A stretch of DNA of 64,000 bases. It comes from Bacillota bacterium. GTDB lineage: Bacteria > Bacillota > Clostridia > Peptostreptococcales > Anaerovoracaceae. This document shows, piece by piece, positions 22,817 through 35,099 of the stretch. Within the stretch, counting starts at the first letter, position 1. Every line of letters begins with the position of its first letter. The stretch covers positions 114,483 through 178,482 of the forward strand of contig JAQXQE010000006.1 of NCBI GenBank assembly GCA_029101005.1, read 5' to 3'. The position numbers and the translations under genes are program-made. The notes beneath the pieces are model-generated. The model did not search any database. It saw only the letters and a list, made by a program, of their open reading frames with translations, and was not told the DNA's origin.

Positions 22817-24379
22817 ATGGCAGATATTAAGAAAGAACAAGAAAGAGCAGAACTACACCGTACTATATGGAGTATTGCGGATGATTTAAGAGGAAGTGTT
22901 GATGGCTGGGACTTCAAGCACTACGTACTTGGTATGCTCTTTTATAGATATATTTCAGAGAACTTTACAGCATATATCAATGAAGGCGAAGCAGAAGCAG
23001 GAAATGAAGGATTCGACTATGCGAAACTTTCAGACGAAGATGCTGAAGGTGCAAGAGATGAGCTTGTAACTACAAAGGGGTTCTTTATTCCACCTAGCCA
23101 CTTATTCTGGAATGTTAAAGCAAAGGCAGCAAATGATGAGAATCTGAATGAAACTCTTGAAGCTGTTTTCAATGGAATTGAGAACTCTGCAAAGGGTACT
23201 GCATCAGAAAATGATATGGCTGGCCTTTTCGATGATTTTGATGTTAACAGTAATAAGCTGGGCGCTACAGTTGCAAAGAGAAATGAAAAACTGGTTAAGC
23301 TTATCAATGGTGTGGCATCAATGAATCTAGGTAATGTCAAGGATCACGACATTGATGCTTTTGGAGATGCTTATGAATATCTGATGACGATGTATGCTTC
23401 GAATGCAGGTAAGTCAGGTGGTGAGTTTTTCACACCTGCAGATGTATCTGAATTGCTTACAAGACTTGGAACCGTTGGCAAGACAGAAGTAAACAAAGTA
23501 TATGACCCTTGTTGTGGATCTGGCTCACTTCTTCTCAAGGCTGAAAAAGTTCTTGGCAAGGATGCTGTTAGAAATGGATTCTATGGACAGGAAATCAATA
23601 TCACTACATACAATCTGTGCAGGATCAATATGTTCCTTCATGATATTGAACCTGATAAGTTTGATATCGCATGTGAGGATACTCTTATTTCACCTGCGCA
23701 CTGGGATGATGAACCATTTGAACTTATCGTTTCAAATCCCCCTTATTCAATAAAGTGGGCTGGAGATGACAATCCACTTCTTATCAACGACCCTAGATAC
23801 TCTCCTGCGGGAGTGCTGGCACCTAAGAGCAAAGCGGACCTTGCTTTTATCATGCATTCGCTTTCTTGGCTTGCGTCAAACGGATCGGCTGCGATTGTTT
23901 GCTTCCCTGGAATCATGTACAGAGGCGGAGCGGAAAAGAAAATCAGGAAATATCTGATTGATAATAACTACATTGACTGCGTTATTCAGCTTCCAAGTAA
24001 TCTTTTCTTTGGAACCTCTATCGCTACATGCATTATGATTATAAAGAAGAATAAGGCTGATAATAAGACTCTGTTCATTGATGCTACAAATGAATGCATC
24101 AAGATTACAAACAACAACAAGCTTACTCAGGAGAATATGGATAGAATCGTTGGGACTTATGCAAGTCGCCTGGAAGACGACCATTTCTCGCACCTGGCAA
24201 GTTATGATGAGATAGAAGAAAACGATTACAATCTGTCTGTATCTACTTATGTTGAAGCTGAGGATACAAGAGAGAAGATCGATATTGTAGAGCTTAACGC
24301 ACAGATTGCAGCAATCGTAAAGAAAGAAGATGAACTCCGTAAGGCAATCGATGAGATCATCGCAGAAATCGAGGAATAG
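22817..24379 (+). CDS. hsdM: Type I restriction-modification methyltransferase subunit
   Basis: 520 residues. N-terminal HsdM helical domain (LRGSVDGWDFKHYVLGMLFYRY), SAM-binding motif DPCCGSGSLL at ~228, and catalytic NPPY at ~306 (VSNPPYSIKW), the gamma-class N6-adenine methylase signature. With HsdS it methylates the recognition site; with HsdR it forms the restriction complex. GAGGAG lies 7 nt before the ATG. Confidence 0.96.
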   Translation: MADIKKEQERAELHRTIWSIADDLRGSVDGWDFKHYVLGMLFYRYISENFTAYINEGEAEAGNEGFDYAKLSDEDAEGARDELVTTKGFFIPPSHLFWNVKAKAANDENLNETLEAVFNGIENSAKGTASENDMAGLFDDFDVNSNKLGATVAKRNEKLVKLINGVASMNLGNVKDHDIDAFGDAYEYLMTMYASNAGKSGGEFFTPADVSELLTRLGTVGKTEVNKVYDPCCGSGSLLLKAEKVLGKDAVRNGFYGQEINITTYNLCRINMFLHDIEPDKFDIACEDTLISPAHWDDEPFELIVSNPPYSIKWAGDDNPLLINDPRYSPAGVLAPKSKADLAFIMHSLSWLASNGSAAIVCFPGIMYRGGAEKKIRKYLIDNNYIDCVIQLPSNLFFGTSIATCIMIIKKNKADNKTLFIDATNECIKITNNNKLTQENMDRIVGTYASRLEDDHFSHLASYDEIEENDYNLSVSTYVEAEDTREKIDIVELNAQIAAIVKKEDELRKAIDEIIAEIEE

Positions 24380-24382
24380 AGT

Positions 24383-25564
24383 ATGAGTAGATTAGATGAA
24401 CTGATTAAGGAACTCTGTCCAGAAGGAGTGGAGAAGAAAAGAATAGGCGATTTGTGCGAGATAAAACGTGGACGAGTAATGTCAAAAGACTATATTGCTA
24501 ATAATGCTGGGGAGTATCCAGTGTTCTCTTCTCAAACCGAAAATAATGGGGAGTTAGGTAGGATTAGCACATATGATTTTGAAGGCGAATACCTCACATG
24601 GACTACAGATGGTGCAAATGCTGGAACTGTTTTTTATAGAAAAGGACAATTCAGTGTAACAAATGTTTGCGGTCTACTTAATGCAAAATCTGAAATTATC
24701 CTAACAAAGTATCTATTTTATGCTTTAAGCATTGAAGCTCCTAAATATGTAAGTAGTGGAATGGGAAATCCAAAGCTTATGAGCAATGTGATGGCTAGGA
24801 TAAAGGTACATGTCCCACCACTTCCAGTGCAGGAAGAAATAGTAAAAATACTTGACAAATTCACGGATTATGTTACTGAGCTACAGGCTGAGCTACAGGC
24901 TGAGCTACAGGCTCGTAAACTACAGTATCAGCATTACTTAGATGCTTTCTATGACACCGAAAAGTATGAGATTATTCCGTTGGCATCTTTAGGTTCATTA
25001 ACAAGAGGAAAGAGGTTTGTACATGCAGATGCTACTGATAGTGGTGTTCCATGTGTTCACTACGGTGAACTGTATACATATTATGGAAGCCATGCAGATG
25101 CAGTAAAATCTCATATCCGCGAGGATTTACGACCTAAAATGAGATATGCAGACCCTGGAGATGTAATAATTGTTGGTGCGGGAGAGAATAATATAGATAT
25201 CGGGGTTGGCTTGTCGTGGGGAGGAAAAGAGCCTGTTGCCGTGCATGATGCCTGTTACACTCTGAAACATTCTCAGAATAGCCGATATATTTCATACTAC
25301 TTAAGATCATCGTATTATCATAACCAAATAAAACGTTGGGTATCTGAAGGAAAGATATGTTCTATTTCTGCTCAAAGTTTAGGAAAAGCGCTTATCCCTA
25401 TTCCCCCTATTGATGAACAAAATAGGATTGCAGAAATTTTAAGTGGCTTCGAGGAGTTGTGTAATGATATAGTATCTGGACTGCCAGCTGAAATCGAAGC
25501 GCGCCAGAAGCAATACGAATACTATAGAGATAAACTGCTTTCATTCAAGGAGATTGAATCATGA
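24383..25564 (+). CDS. hsdS: Type I R-M specificity subunit
   Basis: 393 residues with two target-recognition domains: TRD1 ~15-150 and TRD2 ~195-350. The central conserved helix contains three perfect ELQA repeats, encoded by three identical 12-bp units, and the second conserved helix is LPAEIEARQKQYEYYRDKL. Changing the repeat number is known in other HsdS proteins to change the spacing of the bipartite target. The ATG is 3 bp after the hsdM stop, and the 3' end overlaps the next gene by 4 bp. Confidence 0.95.
   Translation: MSRLDELIKELCPEGVEKKRIGDLCEIKRGRVMSKDYIANNAGEYPVFSSQTENNGELGRISTYDFEGEYLTWTTDGANAGTVFYRKGQFSVTNVCGLLNAKSEIILTKYLFYALSIEAPKYVSSGMGNPKLMSNVMARIKVHVPPLPVQEEIVKILDKFTDYVTELQAELQAELQARKLQYQHYLDAFYDTEKYEIIPLASLGSLTRGKRFVHADATDSGVPCVHYGELYTYYGSHADAVKSHIREDLRPKMRYADPGDVIIVGAGENNIDIGVGLSWGGKEPVAVHDACYTLKHSQNSRYISYYLRSSYYHNQIKRWVSEGKICSISAQSLGKALIPIPPIDEQNRIAEILSGFEELCNDIVSGLPAEIEARQKQYEYYRDKLLSFKEIES
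24878..24913 (+). repeat. Three tandem 12-bp repeats in hsdS
   Basis: GAGCTACAGGCT repeated three times without error, in frame. This is a slippage-prone site that would add or remove four residues between the two recognition domains. Confidence 0.95.
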
Positions 25565-26487
25565 AACTAGGAAAGCTTAAAGAAGTAGATATTAGGAGCG
25601 TGTGGGCGCATGAACAATATGATTTCTCTAAATGGTTAGCGTCAGAAGAGAACATCAAAGAACTAAGTGATACATTGAACCTTTCATTAACTGACATTGA
25701 GACAGAGAAATTCGTAGGTTCATATCGTTGCGATATCATTTGTAAAGATGAGCTAACTGGTAAGAATGTACTTATTGAAAATCAGCTTGAGCAGACAAAC
25801 CACGATCATCTAGGAAAGATTATCACATATGCTTCGGGTTTGGATGCAAGTGTTATTGTTTGGATAGTTGCCAATGCTCGTCCAGAACATGCTAGCGCCA
25901 TTGAATGGCTAAATAAAAACACTACTGATGATGTGGCGTTCTTTCTCATAGAAGTCCATGCATACACCATTGGAGATTCTAGTCCGGCTCCAATGTTCAA
26001 AATAATTGAGCAGCCTAATGATTTTGCAAAAACAACAAAGTCACTGGCAAGTAAGGGGAATCTAAGCGAATCACAAATGTGTCGTCTTGAATTCTGGAAT
26101 ATGTTTAATGATGTTCTGGAAGAAAAAGGTAAGCCATTCAACAAACATAAAGCATCTACAGACCATTGGTACACAGTGGCAGTAGGTTCATCACAGTGCA
26201 GTATTTCAATTGATCTGGTAAACAAAGAACACAAAATCCGTGTAGGCTTATGGATCAATGATAACAAGGATATGTTTGACAGTATGTATTCTTACAAAGC
26301 AGAGATTGAAGCTGCTGCGGGTCAATCCTTAGATTGGTTTAGATTGGATGATAAAAAGGCATCTATTATTTCGCTGGATATCAAAGGATTAAACTTCAAG
26401 AAAAAAGATAATTATCCAGAACTAATGGATACAGTGATAGATAAGGTTGTTATTTTAAGAAATGCTATTAAACCTTATATAGGATAG
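25561..26487 (+). CDS. DUF4268-type protein within the R-M operon
   Basis: 308 residues. The first ~110 residues have a nuclease-like pattern (VGSYRCDIICKDE, then NVLIENQLEQTNHDHLGKIITYASGLDASVIVWI) resembling a PD-(D/E)XK fold with D..E-x-Q. The second half, EFWNMFNDVLEEKGKPF.., is the DUF4268 region. It overlaps hsdS by ATGA, so it is translated with the R-M genes. It could be an accessory nuclease or an independent defence effector; the function is not established. Confidence 0.8.
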   Translation: MKLGKLKEVDIRSVWAHEQYDFSKWLASEENIKELSDTLNLSLTDIETEKFVGSYRCDIICKDELTGKNVLIENQLEQTNHDHLGKIITYASGLDASVIVWIVANARPEHASAIEWLNKNTTDDVAFFLIEVHAYTIGDSSPAPMFKIIEQPNDFAKTTKSLASKGNLSESQMCRLEFWNMFNDVLEEKGKPFNKHKASTDHWYTVAVGSSQCSISIDLVNKEHKIRVGLWINDNKDMFDSMYSYKAEIEAAAGQSLDWFRLDDKKASIISLDIKGLNFKKKDNYPELMDTVIDKVVILRNAIKPYIG

Positions 26488-26502
26488 CATAGGAGGAAAA
26501 CC

Positions 26503-29500
26503 GTGCCATATTTCAACATAGTAGCACAGACAAATGAAAATACAGTCGTAACTGAATATGAACCAGTTAAGGTTAAGTCTGACAGTTATCAGAGCGAAGC
26601 GGAGTTAGAAAAGGACTTTATCAGAATGCTCCAGGAACAAGGCTACGAGTATCTTCAGATACATACAGAAGCAGACCTTGTTGCTAACCTGCGTGCGAAG
26701 CTTGAAGCTCTTAATAACTATTCCTTCACGAATAATGAATGGGATTTCTTCTTTAAGAATGCCATTGCTAATCAAAACGAAGGAATTGAAGATAAAGCTC
26801 GTAAGATTCAGGAAGACTATGTTCAGGTTCTTAAGAGAGACGATGGAACATCTAAGAACATCACTCTCATCGATAAGAAGAACATTCATAACAACAGTCT
26901 TCAGGTTATCAATCAGTATGAAGTATCGCAGGCCGAAGGTGCCAAGCATGACAACAGATACGACGTAACTGTACTTGTTAATGGATTCCCTCTTGTGCAT
27001 ATCGAGCTTAAGCGCAGAGGTGTCGCTATCAAGGAAGCCTTCAATCAGATTAACCGCTACCAGAGAGAGTCTTTCTGGGTAGGAAGCGGTTTATTTGAGT
27101 ACGTTCAGATATTTGTTATATCCAACGGAACAAATACTAAGTATTACTCTAACAGTACAAGATGGAATGCCATCAAAGATGCAAAGGCTGCAAATACCAA
27201 GAAGGAAAAGACAAGCAACAGTTTCGAATTTACATGCTACTGGGCGGATGCTAACAATAAAGTCATACCTGATCTTGTAGACTTTACTAGAACCTTCTTT
27301 GCTAAGCATACGATTCTTAATATCTTAACTAAATACTGTATTTTCACTTCTGAGCAGATGCTGATGGTTATGAGACCATACCAGATTACTGCTACTGAGA
27401 GAATTCTCAACAGAATTGAGATCGCAGATAACTATAAGAAATACGGAACAGTTGCAGGTGGCGGATATATCTGGCACACAACTGGTTCAGGTAAGACTTT
27501 GACATCGTTTAAGACTGCAAGACTTGCGTCAAACCTTCCATACATTGATAAGGTTCTCTTTGTCGTAGACAGAAAAGATCTGGACTACCAGACAATGAAG
27601 GAATACGACAGATTTGAGAAAGGTGCAGCCAACAGCAACTCATCAACAGCAGTTCTCAAGAAGCAGCTCGAGGATGATAATACTCACATTATCATTACAA
27701 CAATTCAGAAGCTGGCAACATTCATAAAGAAGAACAAAGGCCATGATGTATATCAGAAACACGTTGTAATCATCTTCGATGAATGTCATAGATCGCAGTT
27801 TGGTGATATGCATGCTGCAATCGTAAAGAATTTTAAGAAGTATCACATCTTCGGATTTACTGGAACTCCTATATTTGCAGAAAATGCCGGGGCAGTCAGA
27901 ACACCTCAGTTTATGACAACTGAGCAGACTTTTGGTGATCAGCTTCATACATATACAATCGTTGATGCAATTAATGACAAGAATGTATTACCTTTCAAAG
28001 TTGATTACATCAGCACAATGAAAGAAAAAGAAATACCTGACGAGGACGTCTGGGATATCGACAGAGAGAAAGCTATGATGGCTCCAAAGAGAATTTCTGT
28101 CGTAACAAAGTACATTCTTGATCACTTCGATAAGAAAACGTATCGAGGAGATAAGACATATATCTTCAATCAGCTCACCAATATTTCAGATGTTGCAGCT
28201 GGCAGAAACAAGGTAGAAGAAATCAAAGCAGCTCAGAGACTTAGCGGATTCAATTCAATATTTGCTGTTGCCTCAGTAGATATGGCTAAGCTGTATTACG
28301 AAGAGTTCAGGAAACAGATGGCTGAAGATCCATCAAAGAAGCTCAAGATAGCAACCATATACAGCTATGCTCCTAACGAAGAAGAGCCGGAAGGCGGTCT
28401 TCTTGATGAAGAAAATTCAGAGGATACTTCAGCACTCGATAAGAACTCAAGAGATTTCCTTGAAGAAACAATCAAGGATTATAACGAGATGTTCCATACA
28501 AACTACGATACATCAAGTGATAAGTTCCAGAACTATTACAAAGATGTTTCGCTTCGCATGAAGAATAAGGAACTGGATATGCTCATTGTAGTTAATATGT
28601 TCCTTACTGGTTTTGATGCGACAACACTCAATACTCTGTGGGTTGATAAGAATCTTAAGATGCATGGATTGATTCAGGCGTTCTCCAGAACAAACCGAAT
28701 CCTTAACAGCATCAAGACTTACGGTAACATAGTATGCTTCAGAAATCTCCAGAAGAAAGTTGATGAAGCCATAGCCCTCTTTGGCGACAAAGAAGCTGGC
28801 GGTATAGTTCTTCTTAAGAGCTTCCAGGAATACTACTACGGCTATCAAACTGCTGATGGCAAAGATATGCCAGGCTATGTGGATATGGTTGATGAACTCG
28901 TTGAGAGATTCCCTCTTGCAGTACCACAGATTGTTGGAGAAGAGAATCAGAAGAAATTCATTAAACTATTCGGAGCATTTCTCAAGATGAGAAATCTACT
29001 CAGTACATTCGATGAGTTTGAAGGAAAAGAGATTTTCTCAGATAGAGACCTTCAGGATTATCTTGGAAGGTATCAAGATTTAAAAGATATCTTCAGACCT
29101 GATGATAAAGAAAGTACTGACATTAATGATGACATTATTTTCGAAACAGAGCTGATAAAACAGATAGATATCAATATTGATTACATTCTTATGCTGGTTC
29201 AGAAATATCATGATGGACACATGCAGGATAAGGAAATCCTTGTTACTATTCAGAAAGCAGTTGGTGCTCACCCTGAACTCAGAAGCAAGAAACAGCTTAT
29301 CGAAATGTTCCTTGATAGCATTAACAATGTTAACGATGTGGTAACCGCTTGGAATGGGTTTGTAGAAAAGCAACGTGAAGATGATCTTGCAACAATCATT
29401 AGCGAAGAAAAGCTTAAGCCAGAAGAAACTCGTCGTTTCCTCGAAAAAGCTTTTGAAGACGGCGAAATCAAAGAAACTGGAACCGATATCGACAAGATTA

Positions 29501-29706
29501 TGCCACCGGTTTCCAGATTCGGAGGCGGCGCAAATAACAGAGCTGCAAAGAAGCAGACGGTTATCAGCAAGCTTAAAGGATTCTTCGAGAAGTACTTCGG
29601 AGTTGGAACAAAGTTCAAAGCAGTTCCTACAGAAGTTTACACGTTTGAGGAACCAGAAATGTTGATGGTTGCGGAAGAAACTAACGAATATTTTATAATT
29701 GAGTAA
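26503..29706 (+). CDS. hsdR: Type I restriction endonuclease subunit
   Basis: 1067 residues starting with GTG (AGGAGG 6 nt upstream). The N-terminal nuclease domain shows the pattern D..ELKRRG (res ~165). The translocase has Walker A TTGSGKT at ~330 and the DEAD-like box IIFDECHRSQ at ~425, then helicase motifs (FTGTPIF, MFLTGFDA, QAFSRTNR) and a helical C-terminus that contacts HsdM. It cuts unmodified DNA after ATP-driven translocation. Confidence 0.96.
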   Translation: MPYFNIVAQTNENTVVTEYEPVKVKSDSYQSEAELEKDFIRMLQEQGYEYLQIHTEADLVANLRAKLEALNNYSFTNNEWDFFFKNAIANQNEGIEDKARKIQEDYVQVLKRDDGTSKNITLIDKKNIHNNSLQVINQYEVSQAEGAKHDNRYDVTVLVNGFPLVHIELKRRGVAIKEAFNQINRYQRESFWVGSGLFEYVQIFVISNGTNTKYYSNSTRWNAIKDAKAANTKKEKTSNSFEFTCYWADANNKVIPDLVDFTRTFFAKHTILNILTKYCIFTSEQMLMVMRPYQITATERILNRIEIADNYKKYGTVAGGGYIWHTTGSGKTLTSFKTARLASNLPYIDKVLFVVDRKDLDYQTMKEYDRFEKGAANSNSSTAVLKKQLEDDNTHIIITTIQKLATFIKKNKGHDVYQKHVVIIFDECHRSQFGDMHAAIVKNFKKYHIFGFTGTPIFAENAGAVRTPQFMTTEQTFGDQLHTYTIVDAINDKNVLPFKVDYISTMKEKEIPDEDVWDIDREKAMMAPKRISVVTKYILDHFDKKTYRGDKTYIFNQLTNISDVAAGRNKVEEIKAAQRLSGFNSIFAVASVDMAKLYYEEFRKQMAEDPSKKLKIATIYSYAPNEEEPEGGLLDEENSEDTSALDKNSRDFLEETIKDYNEMFHTNYDTSSDKFQNYYKDVSLRMKNKELDMLIVVNMFLTGFDATTLNTLWVDKNLKMHGLIQAFSRTNRILNSIKTYGNIVCFRNLQKKVDEAIALFGDKEAGGIVLLKSFQEYYYGYQTADGKDMPGYVDMVDELVERFPLAVPQIVGEENQKKFIKLFGAFLKMRNLLSTFDEFEGKEIFSDRDLQDYLGRYQDLKDIFRPDDKESTDINDDIIFETELIKQIDINIDYILMLVQKYHDGHMQDKEILVTIQKAVGAHPELRSKKQLIEMFLDSINNVNDVVTAWNGFVEKQREDDLATIISEEKLKPEETRRFLEKAFEDGEIKETGTDIDKIMPPVSRFGGGANNRAAKKQTVISKLKGFFEKYFGVGTKFKAVPTEVYTFEEPEMLMVAEETNEYFIIE

Positions 29707-29724
29707 TGTAAATAAGGAGAGTAA

Positions 29725-31746
29725 ATGAAAACAGATTTTCATATACACACAATTCCAACAAAATGGGATGCTCCATTTGAGTTTTCCATAGAAAAGCTGG
29801 TGGAATATGTTACATTGTTAGAAATAGATGCAATTGCAATAACAAATCATAACTGCTTTGATATAAATCAATTTAAACTCATTCAAACAAAACTTGAAGG
29901 AAAAGCAATGGTTTTCCCTGGAATAGAAGTAAATGTTGCGCCAAACAACGGTCATTTGTTAATTATTGCAGAGATGGATAATCTTGATAGTTTTTCGGAT
30001 GGTTGTAAGTTCATTGAACAAAACGTTGTAAATATTCATGACTCAATGGATATTATGGATATTGAGTCTGCTTTTGGCGGATTTAATAATTATCTATTAA
30101 TACCGCATTACGACAAAAGTCCGGCGATAAGCAAAGACGTAATTGAGCAATTGGGGGACAATATAATATGCGGTGAGGTAACAAGTGCTAAAAAGTATGT
30201 TCGAATGAAGAAATCTGATAAAATCACGCCTGTAATATTCAGCGATTGTAGAATATCTGACTCTCTGAATTATAACAAAACGAGACAAACCTATTTAACA
30301 CTTGGCGAGATCTCGATATCAGCACTTAAGCTTTGTTTGAAAGATAAATCTAAAGTAGCTCTTTCTGCTTTGATGAATGATGAAAAGTTTCAAGTTACAC
30401 CTAGTATTTGTATAGCAAACGGGCTTAATATTGTCATGGGGGAGCGTTCATCAGGGAAAACATACTTCCTAAATGAAATATCTGATGCAAATGAAAATGT
30501 AAAATATATCAAACAGTTTTCTTTATTAGAAAACAAAAGTGGGCAATCATTTGAGGACAGAATAAAAAGCAAAAAATCGAGCGATATTGCAGAATATTTT
30601 GATGAGTTTTCAAAAGTCGTTCGAGATATAAAGGGTGTCAGTTTTACCGATAACATGGAATCTTTGGGCAATTATTTGGATTCTTTAAAGAAAAATGCGG
30701 AAGAGTCAAATATGCAGGATGTATATTCTAAATGCAAGCTTTTTTCTGAAGTATCCTATACTGATGATGATTTACAGAGGATACAAGGTCTCATAAAATC
30801 AACAATGAATCTATTGGATTCAGATACATATAGAAAGATTATTGATTCAGTGATTCCGTATGAAAGGATGGTATTATTACTTGAGGTTTTATTGAACCAA
30901 TTTGAAACAGAAAAAGAACTCTCAATAAAAAAGAATTGGATTAATTCTGTTATTAATAATATTAAACAAGAGTTACAGGCGAATACATCGTCTACTATGA
31001 TAGAGGATATTGATTTCTATCAAATTGCGATGGATAACAAAAGGATCGATGCCTTTAACACTATTTCAAATAAGATAAAAGAAAATAGCGTCATTTTATC
31101 TGAAGAACTAGGAAAGTTTTCGTTAGTTGCTGAAAAGAGACCGTTTGATGGAGCTGGTGAAATGAAGGCTTATAGTGGAAAAGTGTTAAAGTTTTCAGAT
31201 GCATTTCTTCTATACGATAAACCATACGAATTTCTTCAAAAACTAAAAGAAATAGATTCTTTAGATGAAAGCACATATCATGAATTTTTTGCTAAAGTGA
31301 ATTATAAGATATTGAATCAGTATGGTTTGGAAGTTTCTGGTGGGGAACAATCCGAATTTAATCTTCTAAATGAAATAACAAAAGCAAGACAATATGAAAT
31401 ACTGTTGATTGATGAACCAGAATCATCGTTTGATAATGTGTTCTTAAAATCTGATGTTAATAAAATGTTAAAAAGTATATCAGAAGAAATGCCCGTAGTT
31501 ATTGTAACTCACAATAGTACTGTAGGGGCATCGATTAACGCAGATTACCTGATATATACTCGACGAGATATTAATAATGGTAAAGTTGTATTTAGAAGGT
31601 TTATGGGAAGACCGGGGGATACATTCTTAGTGGACGATTCTGGAGAAAAATCACAAAACATTGATGCACTTCTATCATGTTTTGAAGCTGGAGATGATGC
31701 GTATCAGCAAAGGAGAAATGATTATGAAATACTTAAAAATAGATAA
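29725..31746 (+). CDS. PHP-domain / ABC-type ATPase fusion, candidate defence effector
   Basis: 673 residues. N-terminal PHP phosphoesterase domain (res 1-~200) with HIHT, ITNHN, GIEVNV, LIPHYDK and SDCRISD metal ligands. An SMC/Rad50-like ATPase follows: Walker A GERSSGKT ~240, a long helical insertion, signature VSGGEQSEF ~537, Walker B ILLIDEPESSFD ~560 and H-loop VIVTHNS ~595. Longer PHP-AAA proteins of this general design (some named TrlF-like) occur in defence islands. It lies 18 bp after hsdR and overlaps the small gene downstream by 23 bp. The nucleic-acid or nucleotide target is unknown. AT-richer than hsdR, so perhaps acquired separately. Confidence 0.8.
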   Translation: MKTDFHIHTIPTKWDAPFEFSIEKLVEYVTLLEIDAIAITNHNCFDINQFKLIQTKLEGKAMVFPGIEVNVAPNNGHLLIIAEMDNLDSFSDGCKFIEQNVVNIHDSMDIMDIESAFGGFNNYLLIPHYDKSPAISKDVIEQLGDNIICGEVTSAKKYVRMKKSDKITPVIFSDCRISDSLNYNKTRQTYLTLGEISISALKLCLKDKSKVALSALMNDEKFQVTPSICIANGLNIVMGERSSGKTYFLNEISDANENVKYIKQFSLLENKSGQSFEDRIKSKKSSDIAEYFDEFSKVVRDIKGVSFTDNMESLGNYLDSLKKNAEESNMQDVYSKCKLFSEVSYTDDDLQRIQGLIKSTMNLLDSDTYRKIIDSVIPYERMVLLLEVLLNQFETEKELSIKKNWINSVINNIKQELQANTSSTMIEDIDFYQIAMDNKRIDAFNTISNKIKENSVILSEELGKFSLVAEKRPFDGAGEMKAYSGKVLKFSDAFLLYDKPYEFLQKLKEIDSLDESTYHEFFAKVNYKILNQYGLEVSGGEQSEFNLLNEITKARQYEILLIDEPESSFDNVFLKSDVNKMLKSISEEMPVVIVTHNSTVGASINADYLIYTRRDINNGKVVFRRFMGRPGDTFLVDDSGEKSQNIDALLSCFEAGDDAYQQRRNDYEILKNR

Positions 31747-32106: not shown

Positions 32107-33084
32107 ATGGACCAGAATTATGAAAATTTAAGAATCATTTCAGGCTCAGAGATTGAGCCCAAGGAAGTCGACTGGCTGTGGTATCCGTATATTCCTTACG
32201 GCAAGATTACCATAGTACAGGGTGACCCAGGCGAAGGCAAGAGCACTTTCGTGCTGAATCTTGCTGCCATGCTGACGACTGGCACACCACTCCCCTACTC
32301 TACCGAAGAGTATGAACCGATGAATATCATCTATCAGAACACTGAGGATGATGCAGAAGATACGGTTGTTCCCCGCTTCATAAACGCAGGCGGAGATCTC
32401 AATCGTATCTTTTTTATTGATGAGAGAAGCCAGGCACTGAGTTTTGCGGACGACAGAATCGGCGAGACGATTAGAAGAACCGGTGCGAAGCTCATCATAT
32501 TTGATCCGCTTGCTTCATATATCGGAGCTGAAGTTTCTCTCAATCAGGCCAACGAAGTGCGTTCACAGATGAACTACCTCATCGACATTGCAAAGGAAAC
32601 CGGCTGTGCTGTTATCGTAGTTGCGCACATGAACAAGATGTCAGGAGCGAAAGCAATGTACCGCACGTCGGGGTCTATCGACATAGTAGCTTCGGCGAGA
32701 AGCTGTCTTCTGATTGGAACTGCACCTGAGGATCAGACCAAAAGAATCATGGCTGTTCAGAAATCTAACCTGGCTGAGAAAGGAAAAGCTATCGAGTTTG
32801 GCATCGAGGACAGCAAAGTTGCCTTCCTTCGCCAGCTGGATATGACAGCAGATGAACTCGTGAACAGTTATCCTTCGACTGGTTCCCGAAGAAAAACCAA
32901 GCGCGAGATGGCCAAGGAAGTATTACTTGAAATGCTGACTAATGGGCCGAAGACTCAACGGGACGTGATGGATGCAATGGATGAACTTAACATCAGCAAG
33001 CGCACCGTTGATGATGCCAAGCGTGAACTCGGGGTCGAATCCATGCGTGTAAAGGACGCCTGGATATGGCACTACGAGTCATAG
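32107..33084 (+). CDS. RepA-like AAA ATPase (replication helicase)
   Basis: 325 residues. RecA-fold ATPase with Walker A GDPGEGKST (~res 41), Walker B LIIFDPLASY (~135), the VVAHMNKMSG sensor region and a C-terminal winged-helix-like segment (TQRDVMDAMDELNISKRTVDDAKREL). Similar AAA_25/RepA proteins are hexameric helicases for plasmids and mobilizable elements. GGAGG precedes the ATG. It probably supports replication of the excised element together with the relaxase downstream. Confidence 0.82.
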   Translation: MDQNYENLRIISGSEIEPKEVDWLWYPYIPYGKITIVQGDPGEGKSTFVLNLAAMLTTGTPLPYSTEEYEPMNIIYQNTEDDAEDTVVPRFINAGGDLNRIFFIDERSQALSFADDRIGETIRRTGAKLIIFDPLASYIGAEVSLNQANEVRSQMNYLIDIAKETGCAVIVVAHMNKMSGAKAMYRTSGSIDIVASARSCLLIGTAPEDQTKRIMAVQKSNLAEKGKAIEFGIEDSKVAFLRQLDMTADELVNSYPSTGSRRKTKREMAKEVLLEMLTNGPKTQRDVMDAMDELNISKRTVDDAKRELGVESMRVKDAWIWHYES

Positions 33085-33099
33085 CGATGGCATCAGGGC

Positions 33100-33434
33100 A
33101 AGAACGCAACATTCTCATAGTGAACGGAAGAGTCCCTGAAACATGCGATGTTGCTTTTGCCCTGCAAGGGGGTCAAGGGGTATTCCCCTTGCGAACGACC
33201 TATGCAATAGGTGTAGTGAGTTACTCATATGGGATGCAGAAGCGGCCTTGCGAGGGTTTCAGATGGAAACCTCTCGCTTAGTCGCTTCTTTTGATATGAG
33301 GGTCGAGGATGCAGACTCTCATACTCATCCGGCATCCCTTATGAGTACAGCAGGTTAACCCGGAGGGAATGGCATTGAGTGAAGAATGCAAAAGACAGCG
33401 CTTCAAGGGTGTCAATGTGGAATGTTGCGTTCTT
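33100..33434 (+). ncRNA. Long structured non-coding region upstream of the relaxase (RNA and/or oriT)
   Basis: 335 bp closed by a perfect 15-bp inverted repeat (33100-33114 AAGAACGCAACATTC with 33420-33434). Inside are a 16-bp stem with one mismatch (33222-33237 with 33332-33347), a hairpin CAAGGGG-TATT-CCCCTTG (33174-33191) and TATGAGGGTC/GACTCTCATA (33295-33323). No credible ORF is present. The position just before mobV is where an origin of transfer is expected; the nested pairing also suggests a folded RNA. Which one cannot be decided from one sequence. Confidence 0.55.
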
Positions 33435-33463
33435 CCTCTCAATGCAGAAAGGAGCGAAATGAA

Positions 33464-34441
33464 ATGGCAAACTATACGATACTGAGAATTGAAAAGAGAA
33501 AGCTTAATGCCGTCACCAGGATATGCAATCATCATGAGCGACTGAAGGAACAGTACAAGAGCAATCCTGACATTGATCCTGAAAGAACACATCTCAACTA
33601 TCATCTGTACGAGCCGAAGGATAGATACAGAGCAGCTGTCCTTGGCAGAATCGAAGAGGCAGGAGCAAAGCGAAGAAAGGACAGCGTTGTTCTTCAGGAT
33701 TCGATTGTAACTGCATCACCTGACTGGATAAATAATTTAAGTCAGCAGGAGCAGAGAGAGTTCTTCGAAAGAGCATATGCCTTTTTCACAAAGACCTTCG
33801 GAGAAGAGAACATGATCTCTGCTGTTGTCCACATGGACGAAACCAATCCTCACATGCATGTCTGTTTTGTTCCCATAACAAAAGACAACAGACTTTCATC
33901 GAAGGATATCATCGGAGGTCCAAGAGGGCTGGTTAAGCTGCAGGACGATTTTTATTCTCACATGCAGGAGAGGTTTCCTGATTTAAGTAGGGGTCTTTCA
34001 AGAAAGATTACTCAGCGCAAGCATATACCGACAGAGTTCTACAAGAATGCTGACAACCTGATGTCACATTACGAAGAGATTGTAAATGCAATCAATGATA
34101 TCGGAGTGTTTAGGAACGGAGAGAAGAGAGAAGCTGCCATCACTCTTCTCGGAAGGTATGCTCCTGAGATGGCACAGATGAACAGACAGCTCAAGATGAC
34201 GGATAACTATGTTACAAGACTTGAGAATGCAATAACTGATTACAAGAAGTCTAATGCAAACAAGAACGATATCATCTACGACCAGAGAGAAGAGATCGAG
34301 CAGCTTAAAAATAAAGTAAGCGAACTTAATTTCAATCAGAGGAAGCTTCAGAGAGTAATTGATAAGATACCGCCTGATGTTATGGATCAGATGAAAAAAG
34401 ATGAGAGAGCAAGACGAAGAGCAGAAAGAGAGGCACGCTGA
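33464..34441 (+). CDS. MobV-family relaxase (Pre/Mob)
   Basis: 325 residues from the ATG at 33464, which has AAAGGAG 9 nt upstream. The N-terminal Mob/Pre domain contains the metal/catalytic motif HMDETNPHMH (~res 122), followed by PITKDNRLSSKDI, and a coiled-coil C-terminus rich in Lys/Glu/Arg. It nicks the element's oriT and pilots single-stranded DNA into a conjugation channel supplied by another element. The stop overlaps the next start by 1 bp. Confidence 0.92.
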   Translation: MANYTILRIEKRKLNAVTRICNHHERLKEQYKSNPDIDPERTHLNYHLYEPKDRYRAAVLGRIEEAGAKRRKDSVVLQDSIVTASPDWINNLSQQEQREFFERAYAFFTKTFGEENMISAVVHMDETNPHMHVCFVPITKDNRLSSKDIIGGPRGLVKLQDDFYSHMQERFPDLSRGLSRKITQRKHIPTEFYKNADNLMSHYEEIVNAINDIGVFRNGEKREAAITLLGRYAPEMAQMNRQLKMTDNYVTRLENAITDYKKSNANKNDIIYDQREEIEQLKNKVSELNFNQRKLQRVIDKIPPDVMDQMKKDERARRRAEREAR

Positions 34442-34748: not shown

Positions 34749-35099
34749 ATGATTAAACACATTAGTATTGATAAGTTATATCCTTTTGAGGAAGTATTAT
34801 TCTCCCTTGATGATAACGATGAGATGGAGATGCTCATTGATAGCATCAAGGAGTTTGGAGTTCTCCAGCCTATCATTGTCAGGAAGGCTTCATACGGTTA
34901 TGAAGTTATTTCAGGCAATAGAAGACTCTATGCAGCGTGCATGGCAGACTATGAAACAGTTCCTGCTATTATAATGGATCTTACAGATGAAGAAGCGATT
35001 GCGGTAATGGTCGATTCTAATCTGCACAGGAATATACTGCCGAGCGAGAAAGCTTTTTCCTACAAAGCAAAATATGAGGCTCTTGAGAGTCTTAAGTAG
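34749..35099 (+). CDS. Short ParB-like protein lacking the DNA-binding domain
   Basis: 116 residues from the ATG at 34749 (GAGAGG upstream). Only the ParB N-terminal fold is present: VISGNRRLYAACMAD and VMVDSNLHRNILPSEKAFSYK. It stops exactly where the helix-turn-helix begins in the longer ParB at 21413. It could be a truncated relative or a stand-alone ParB-fold regulator. No frame continues the homology after the stop. Confidence 0.75.
   Translation: MIKHISIDKLYPFEEVLFSLDDNDEMEMLIDSIKEFGVLQPIIVRKASYGYEVISGNRRLYAACMADYETVPAIIMDLTDEEAIAVMVDSNLHRNILPSEKAFSYKAKYEALESLK

Follow-up and report, generated by a model that had tools for sequence, protein, structure and literature searches.

Directly upstream of a MobV relaxase gene in the window, the 64,000-nt stretch of DNA analyzed here, lies a conserved, folded module of 335 nt that is very probably an extended MOBV-type origin of transfer (oriT) of an integrative mobilizable element (IME), folded as DNA. 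We favor this reading of the sequence because the module has the anatomy of a MOBV core, its pairing covaries among relatives, it keeps synteny with MobV, and a model built from its relatives detects the mapped oriT of pMV158. A widespread branch of Clostridia appears to wrap the MOBV nick in a far larger conserved fold, the orientation of which can flip.

The module (33100-33434) is closed by an exact 15-bp inverted repeat, AAGAACGCAACATTC at 33100-33114 and GAATGTTGCGTTCTT at 33420-33434, with a spacer of 305 nt; at about 90% match the repeat lengthens to 20-21 nt (left arm to about 33095-33115). None of 200 dinucleotide shuffles matched this pair of arms. Read along the forward strand, the interior comprises the conserved pre-nick hairpin H2 (33174-33191, CAAGGGG-TATT-CCCCTTG), the nick-proximal hairpin H3 (33198-33212, ACCTAT-GCA-ATAGGT), and a branched stem, H4. 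The 5' arm of H4 (33222-33237) begins 2 nt past the predicted nick and pairs at 15 of 16 positions with its 3' arm (33332-33347), enclosing the side hairpins H4a (33238-33289, defined by inverted repeat I2 and the fold) and H4b (33292-33327, defined by the fold). The perfect closing repeat, the internal 16-bp stem and the nested hairpins described in an earlier note on this DNA were therefore all recovered, and the region's lack of coding potential held, as only mechanical ORFs overlap it. Predicted folding of the 335-nt region as RNA gave -140.9 kcal/mol (z -8.1), with none of 100 dinucleotide shuffles as good; the minus strand scored z -8.4, and DNA parameters applied to 33095-33439 gave z -9.7. 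The earlier note had also seen two competing folds, the left arm pairing locally through GCAACAT with ATGTTGC. That pairing exists, but 34 of 100 shuffles equaled it and the closest relative, locus L032, lacks it; the left-arm switch was rejected. A second copy of the left-arm motif (GAAGAATGCAA, 33381-33391, forward strand) offers the right arm an alternative local partner: pairing of 33381-33391 with 33425-33435 was reached by none of 100 shuffles in the window and was weaker in L032 (4 of 100).

DNA similarity searches for further copies of the window region were negative for its own genome, 98 relatives, plasmids and phages, and relatives were therefore sought by relaxase, which yielded about 100 loci. 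Upstream of most of these relaxase genes stood a conserved hairpin, then a second hairpin, then GTAGTGNG^TTA, the known MOBV nick core. The window has the same MOBV feature, a hairpin about 8 nt before the G^T of GTGNG^TT, in the form GTAGTGAG^TTA. A covariance model of the core (R1) was built from 24 Clostridia relatives with pMV158 left out. In a 1.6-kb stretch of pMV158 its top match was the mapped oriT (17.6 bits, E 6.5e-5; next match E 1.0), and its alignment superposed the pMV158 nick on G33220^T33221 of the window and identified H3 as the equivalent of pMV158 IR1. The predicted nick within GTAGTGAG^TTACTC (33220-33221) hence rests on homology to pMV158 G3595^T3596 (PMC5863519). R1 matched the window at 33159-33234 with 65.2 bits, the single match in a scan of the window's genome.

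Aligning the regions upstream of related MobV genes confirmed that the pairing is conserved. Across the 24 loci, 96.1% of core cells were paired, 7 pairs showed double changes, and the covariation score was 0.289 versus 0.097 in shuffles, with none of 500 shuffles reaching it; covarying pairs in H2 included C-G/A-T and A-T/G-C. The putative stem H0 (GGGAG/CTCCC), which would close the core, is invariant in one clade and therefore gives no covariation there. Relatives extend the base of H3 with CCCAC/GTGGG or CACAC/GTGTG. This IR3-like extension is non-complementary in the window and L032, where the facing letters mismatch GTGAG, and is kept by the other aligned loci. An IR3-like extension ending at the nick is present in pMV158, but the definition of a MOBV oriT does not demand one. 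It is extremely unlikely that the structure arose by accident from repeats or reflects a composition artifact. Template switching does homogenize inverted repeats without selection (PMC8604942), but against an accident stand compensatory changes seen in H2, H3 and H4 among loci with widely diverged relaxases, the shuffle controls, and an island of 96% identity (33167-33220) shared by the window and L032 beside flanking DNA that is 42% identical.

Pairing was also seen beyond the nick. Because the search for H4 takes the best available partner, shuffled sequences served as its control; H4 beat all 60 shuffles in 34 of 49 loci, representing 32 distinct helices, and did not do so in the other 15. 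In most lineages showing H4 it starts at +2 or +3 from the nick, and its 3' arms end at about +95 to +215. H4 also occurs in the variant-core lineages L019, L020, L052, L055 and L075, and is clear in most of them. A single RNAalifold run over all 50 modules returned an energy of 0, the clades being too divergent, and clade-wise alignments were therefore used. That of the GTGAC-arm clade gave a 72-pair consensus with 98.5% of cells paired, and its double changes were reached by none of 500 shuffles. Wobble cells, considered for strand choice, numbered 46 G.T versus 7 A.C, but these reduce to 11 versus 6 distinct pairs (p 0.33). The pMV158 oriT lacks a branched stem after the nick: 279 of 300 shuffles did as well.

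A closing helix outside the core exceeded dinucleotide shuffles in 25 of 34 loci, in 23 of them beyond all 200, and none was significant in the remaining nine; an outer repeat in related elements, at issue in the earlier note, was thus found in part. Given those nine loci, outer arms are frequent without being obligatory. Different clades use unrelated arm sequences (GCAACAA-, GTGACGGTG-, TGACATCTT- and CAATAAGT-types), which often consist of 8-9 nt repeats in opposed orientation. L084 and L089 have arms that match perfectly over 42 bp (42/42). In L032, with a relaxase 98% identical to that of the window, DNA from the left arm to the core is only 42% identical, and two mirrored changes distinguish its arms from those of the window, leaving all 15 pairs intact.

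These arms may instead be repeats (iterons) that bind a relaxosome accessory protein or a replication initiator as double-stranded DNA, their pairing a by-product of opposed orientation. Such a reading, which is compatible with an oriT reading of the core, has a reasonable though minority chance of being correct. It fits the clade-specific construction of arms from short direct repeats (GTGACGGTG-, GCAACAA- and CAATAAGT-type) in opposed orientation, as well as the extra inner copies that permit local pairing. Arms perfect to 42/42, with mirrored changes in close relatives, exceed what separate binding sites need, and the window arm holds little beyond one repeat; template switching could, on the other hand, yield both the perfect arms and the mirrored changes.

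The module keeps its position next to MobV, and its fold is kept in both orientations relative to mob. In the GTGAC-arm clade, module and arms are mostly reversed relative to mob and lie between the helicase and relaxase genes. Exceptions are the forward modules of L054, which aligns with L084 in inverted orientation (83% over 232 bp), and L107. The module of L141 is also forward, with a relaxase 89% identical to that of the reversed L076. Aligned with L089, L141 shows a direct upstream gene (-1300 to -377), an inverted module (-432 to -61, 83%) and direct mob (-6 to 198); its genome also holds reversed copies. Parsimony with forward outgroups required three orientation changes. A tree with a single reversed clade was disfavored, not strictly rejected (p-AU 0.08), and the direct flanks around an inverted middle in L141 argue against it. 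Flips occur between loci with 74-89% relaxase identity. High-frequency phase variation found no support, as near-identical copies all share one orientation.

Orientation also bears on whether relaxase expression is controlled by the module acting as a structured leader of the mob transcript. The strong RNA fold is what such a leader would show, and in the window the mob ribosome-binding site follows the module directly, with both pointing the same way. The module is, however, inverted relative to mob in most of one clade and forward again in L141, and a mob leader would therefore carry the opposite strand there. An Rfam search of the region returned no family at gathering score or E < 0.01, and promoter-like or terminator-like sites inside the module were not above chance. 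We therefore consider a leader RNA very unlikely. The combined oriT and leader RNA proposed in the earlier note keeps its first half, on the strength of the core, covariation, synteny and pMV158 match; its second half found no support, though the module may have an RNA role in addition.

Template switching between inverted repeats homogenizes their arms and inverts the spacer, the cited cases having short spacers (PMC8604942). By analogy, it would explain both the homogenized arms and the inverted modules seen here. Inversion may even be functional choice rather than accident, with the oriT an invertible cassette whose paired arms let the element flip its origin and are kept complementary by template switching or by selection. 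We hold this idea tentatively and consider it doubtful on present data; were it true, a flip would reverse which genes enter the recipient first. Reversal of transfer direction by an element is a question now directly testable.

Read as an extended oriT, the module would work as follows. The transferred strand, single-stranded or extruded, would fold into H2, H3 and the branched H4, placing the cleaved G^T at the base between H3 and H4, since H4 starts 2-3 nt past the nick. By analogy with pMV158 and IMESag-rpsI (PMC5863519, PMC5090054), the neighboring MobV would bind to H3 and cleave G33220^T33221. The first DNA out of the donor would then be H4, which would refold at the relaxase-bound 5' end and may there aid nick exposure and/or, once in the recipient, rejoining or the priming of a second strand. 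Flanking the module, the outer arms may pair over long range or, in many relatives, locally. A specific role for H4 as a single-strand origin (sso) or single-stranded promoter, priming complementary-strand synthesis in the recipient, is unlikely, if less so than a leader RNA. H4 would enter the recipient first and is a feature absent from the pMV158 oriT, and in pMV158-type modules the sso is a separate site located past the mob gene (PMC5090054); an origin so near the 5' end would, however, run into the nick until rejoining. The conservation of H4 suggests that structure just past the nick matters in transfer.

The module resembles the oriT of pMV158 and its relaxase MobM (MOBV1), to which the window relaxase is homologous, in its hairpin, bulge and GTGNG^TTA nick core and, in forward members, in the same order relative to mob. 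It differs in that the pMV158 oriT consists of three overlapping small repeats, whereas the Clostridia fold, with outer arms, spans about 175-345 nt. IMESag-rpsI, a streptococcal MOBV IME, likewise has a MobV relaxase (MobSag), an upstream oriT and a GTGCG^T nick, but this oriT measures only 42 bp and contains three repeats (PMC5090054). MOBV origins described in the open-licence papers searched are short. Those papers gave no description of the larger fold or of its inversion, which is weak evidence that both are undescribed. Tn4451, also a MobV IME, carries a serine recombinase (PMC5704250). As in Tn4451/Tn6215-type MOBV IMEs of Clostridia, relatives with a reversed module couple MobV to a large serine-recombinase-like gene, whereas the window element carries a tyrosine integrase. 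SGI1 offers another parallel: mobilization of this IME needs a structured nucleic acid besides oriT; there, a small RNA is required (PMC9299015), and both the module and the relaxase are unrelated to those of the window.

The genes on either side of the module both lie on the forward strand. The relaxase gene (33464-34441) encodes a MobV/Mob_Pre protein (Pfam Mob_Pre, E 7.5e-56; MobM structure 4lvi, E 1.1e-25). It starts with ATG at 33464, preceded by AGGAG at 33450-33454, and carries the motif HxDExxPHxH as HMDETNPHMH; H123, D125, E126, P129, H130 and H132 are invariant in relaxase alignment A1. Upstream, an AAA_25 (RepA/KaiC-like) helicase-type ATPase gene (32107-33084; Pfam AAA_25, E 3.8e-28) is also the usual neighbor among relatives. 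A search for attachment sites of the window element found no convincing repeat. Elsewhere in the window, a ParB-like gene (34749-35099) encodes 116 aa and ends in two stop codons in succession; relatives have about 284 aa at the same place, and the gene is probably truncated. Type I restriction-modification-like genes (HsdM-, HsdS- and HsdR-like) and a gene for a PHP-domain/ATPase protein (22817-31746) are likely cargo of the element. Two matches to the Rfam pemK RNA (RF02913; 36405-36501 and 42700-42796; 53 and 71 bits) share a strand and are separated by about 6 kb, in the region around the integrase.

The family was found in Blautia, Oscillibacter and Eubacterium elements, and provides a signature by which mobilizable elements of gut bacteria can be recognized from sequence. 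For L124 (LR962153.1), two Enterococcus faecalis plasmids carry a GTGAC-arm module at 99% identity, and tet(O) is located about 3.4 kb upstream of it on the plasmid that was inspected. Near-identical versions of the element also occur in several Clostridia and in a Veillonellaceae record. Eight IMG/VR "viral" contigs (L126-L133) carry MobV and the oriT module and, judged by that content, would hold, or be, mobilizable elements. One MobV clade, with about 43% identity to the window relaxase (L060, L085, L094, L095, L098, L100, L101 and L102), has its core some 3.5-5.7 kb upstream of mob rather than beside it. L024 gave a weak yet significant match to the core at 1313-1402, upstream of a far more distant MobV gene, which suggests that the family extends further.
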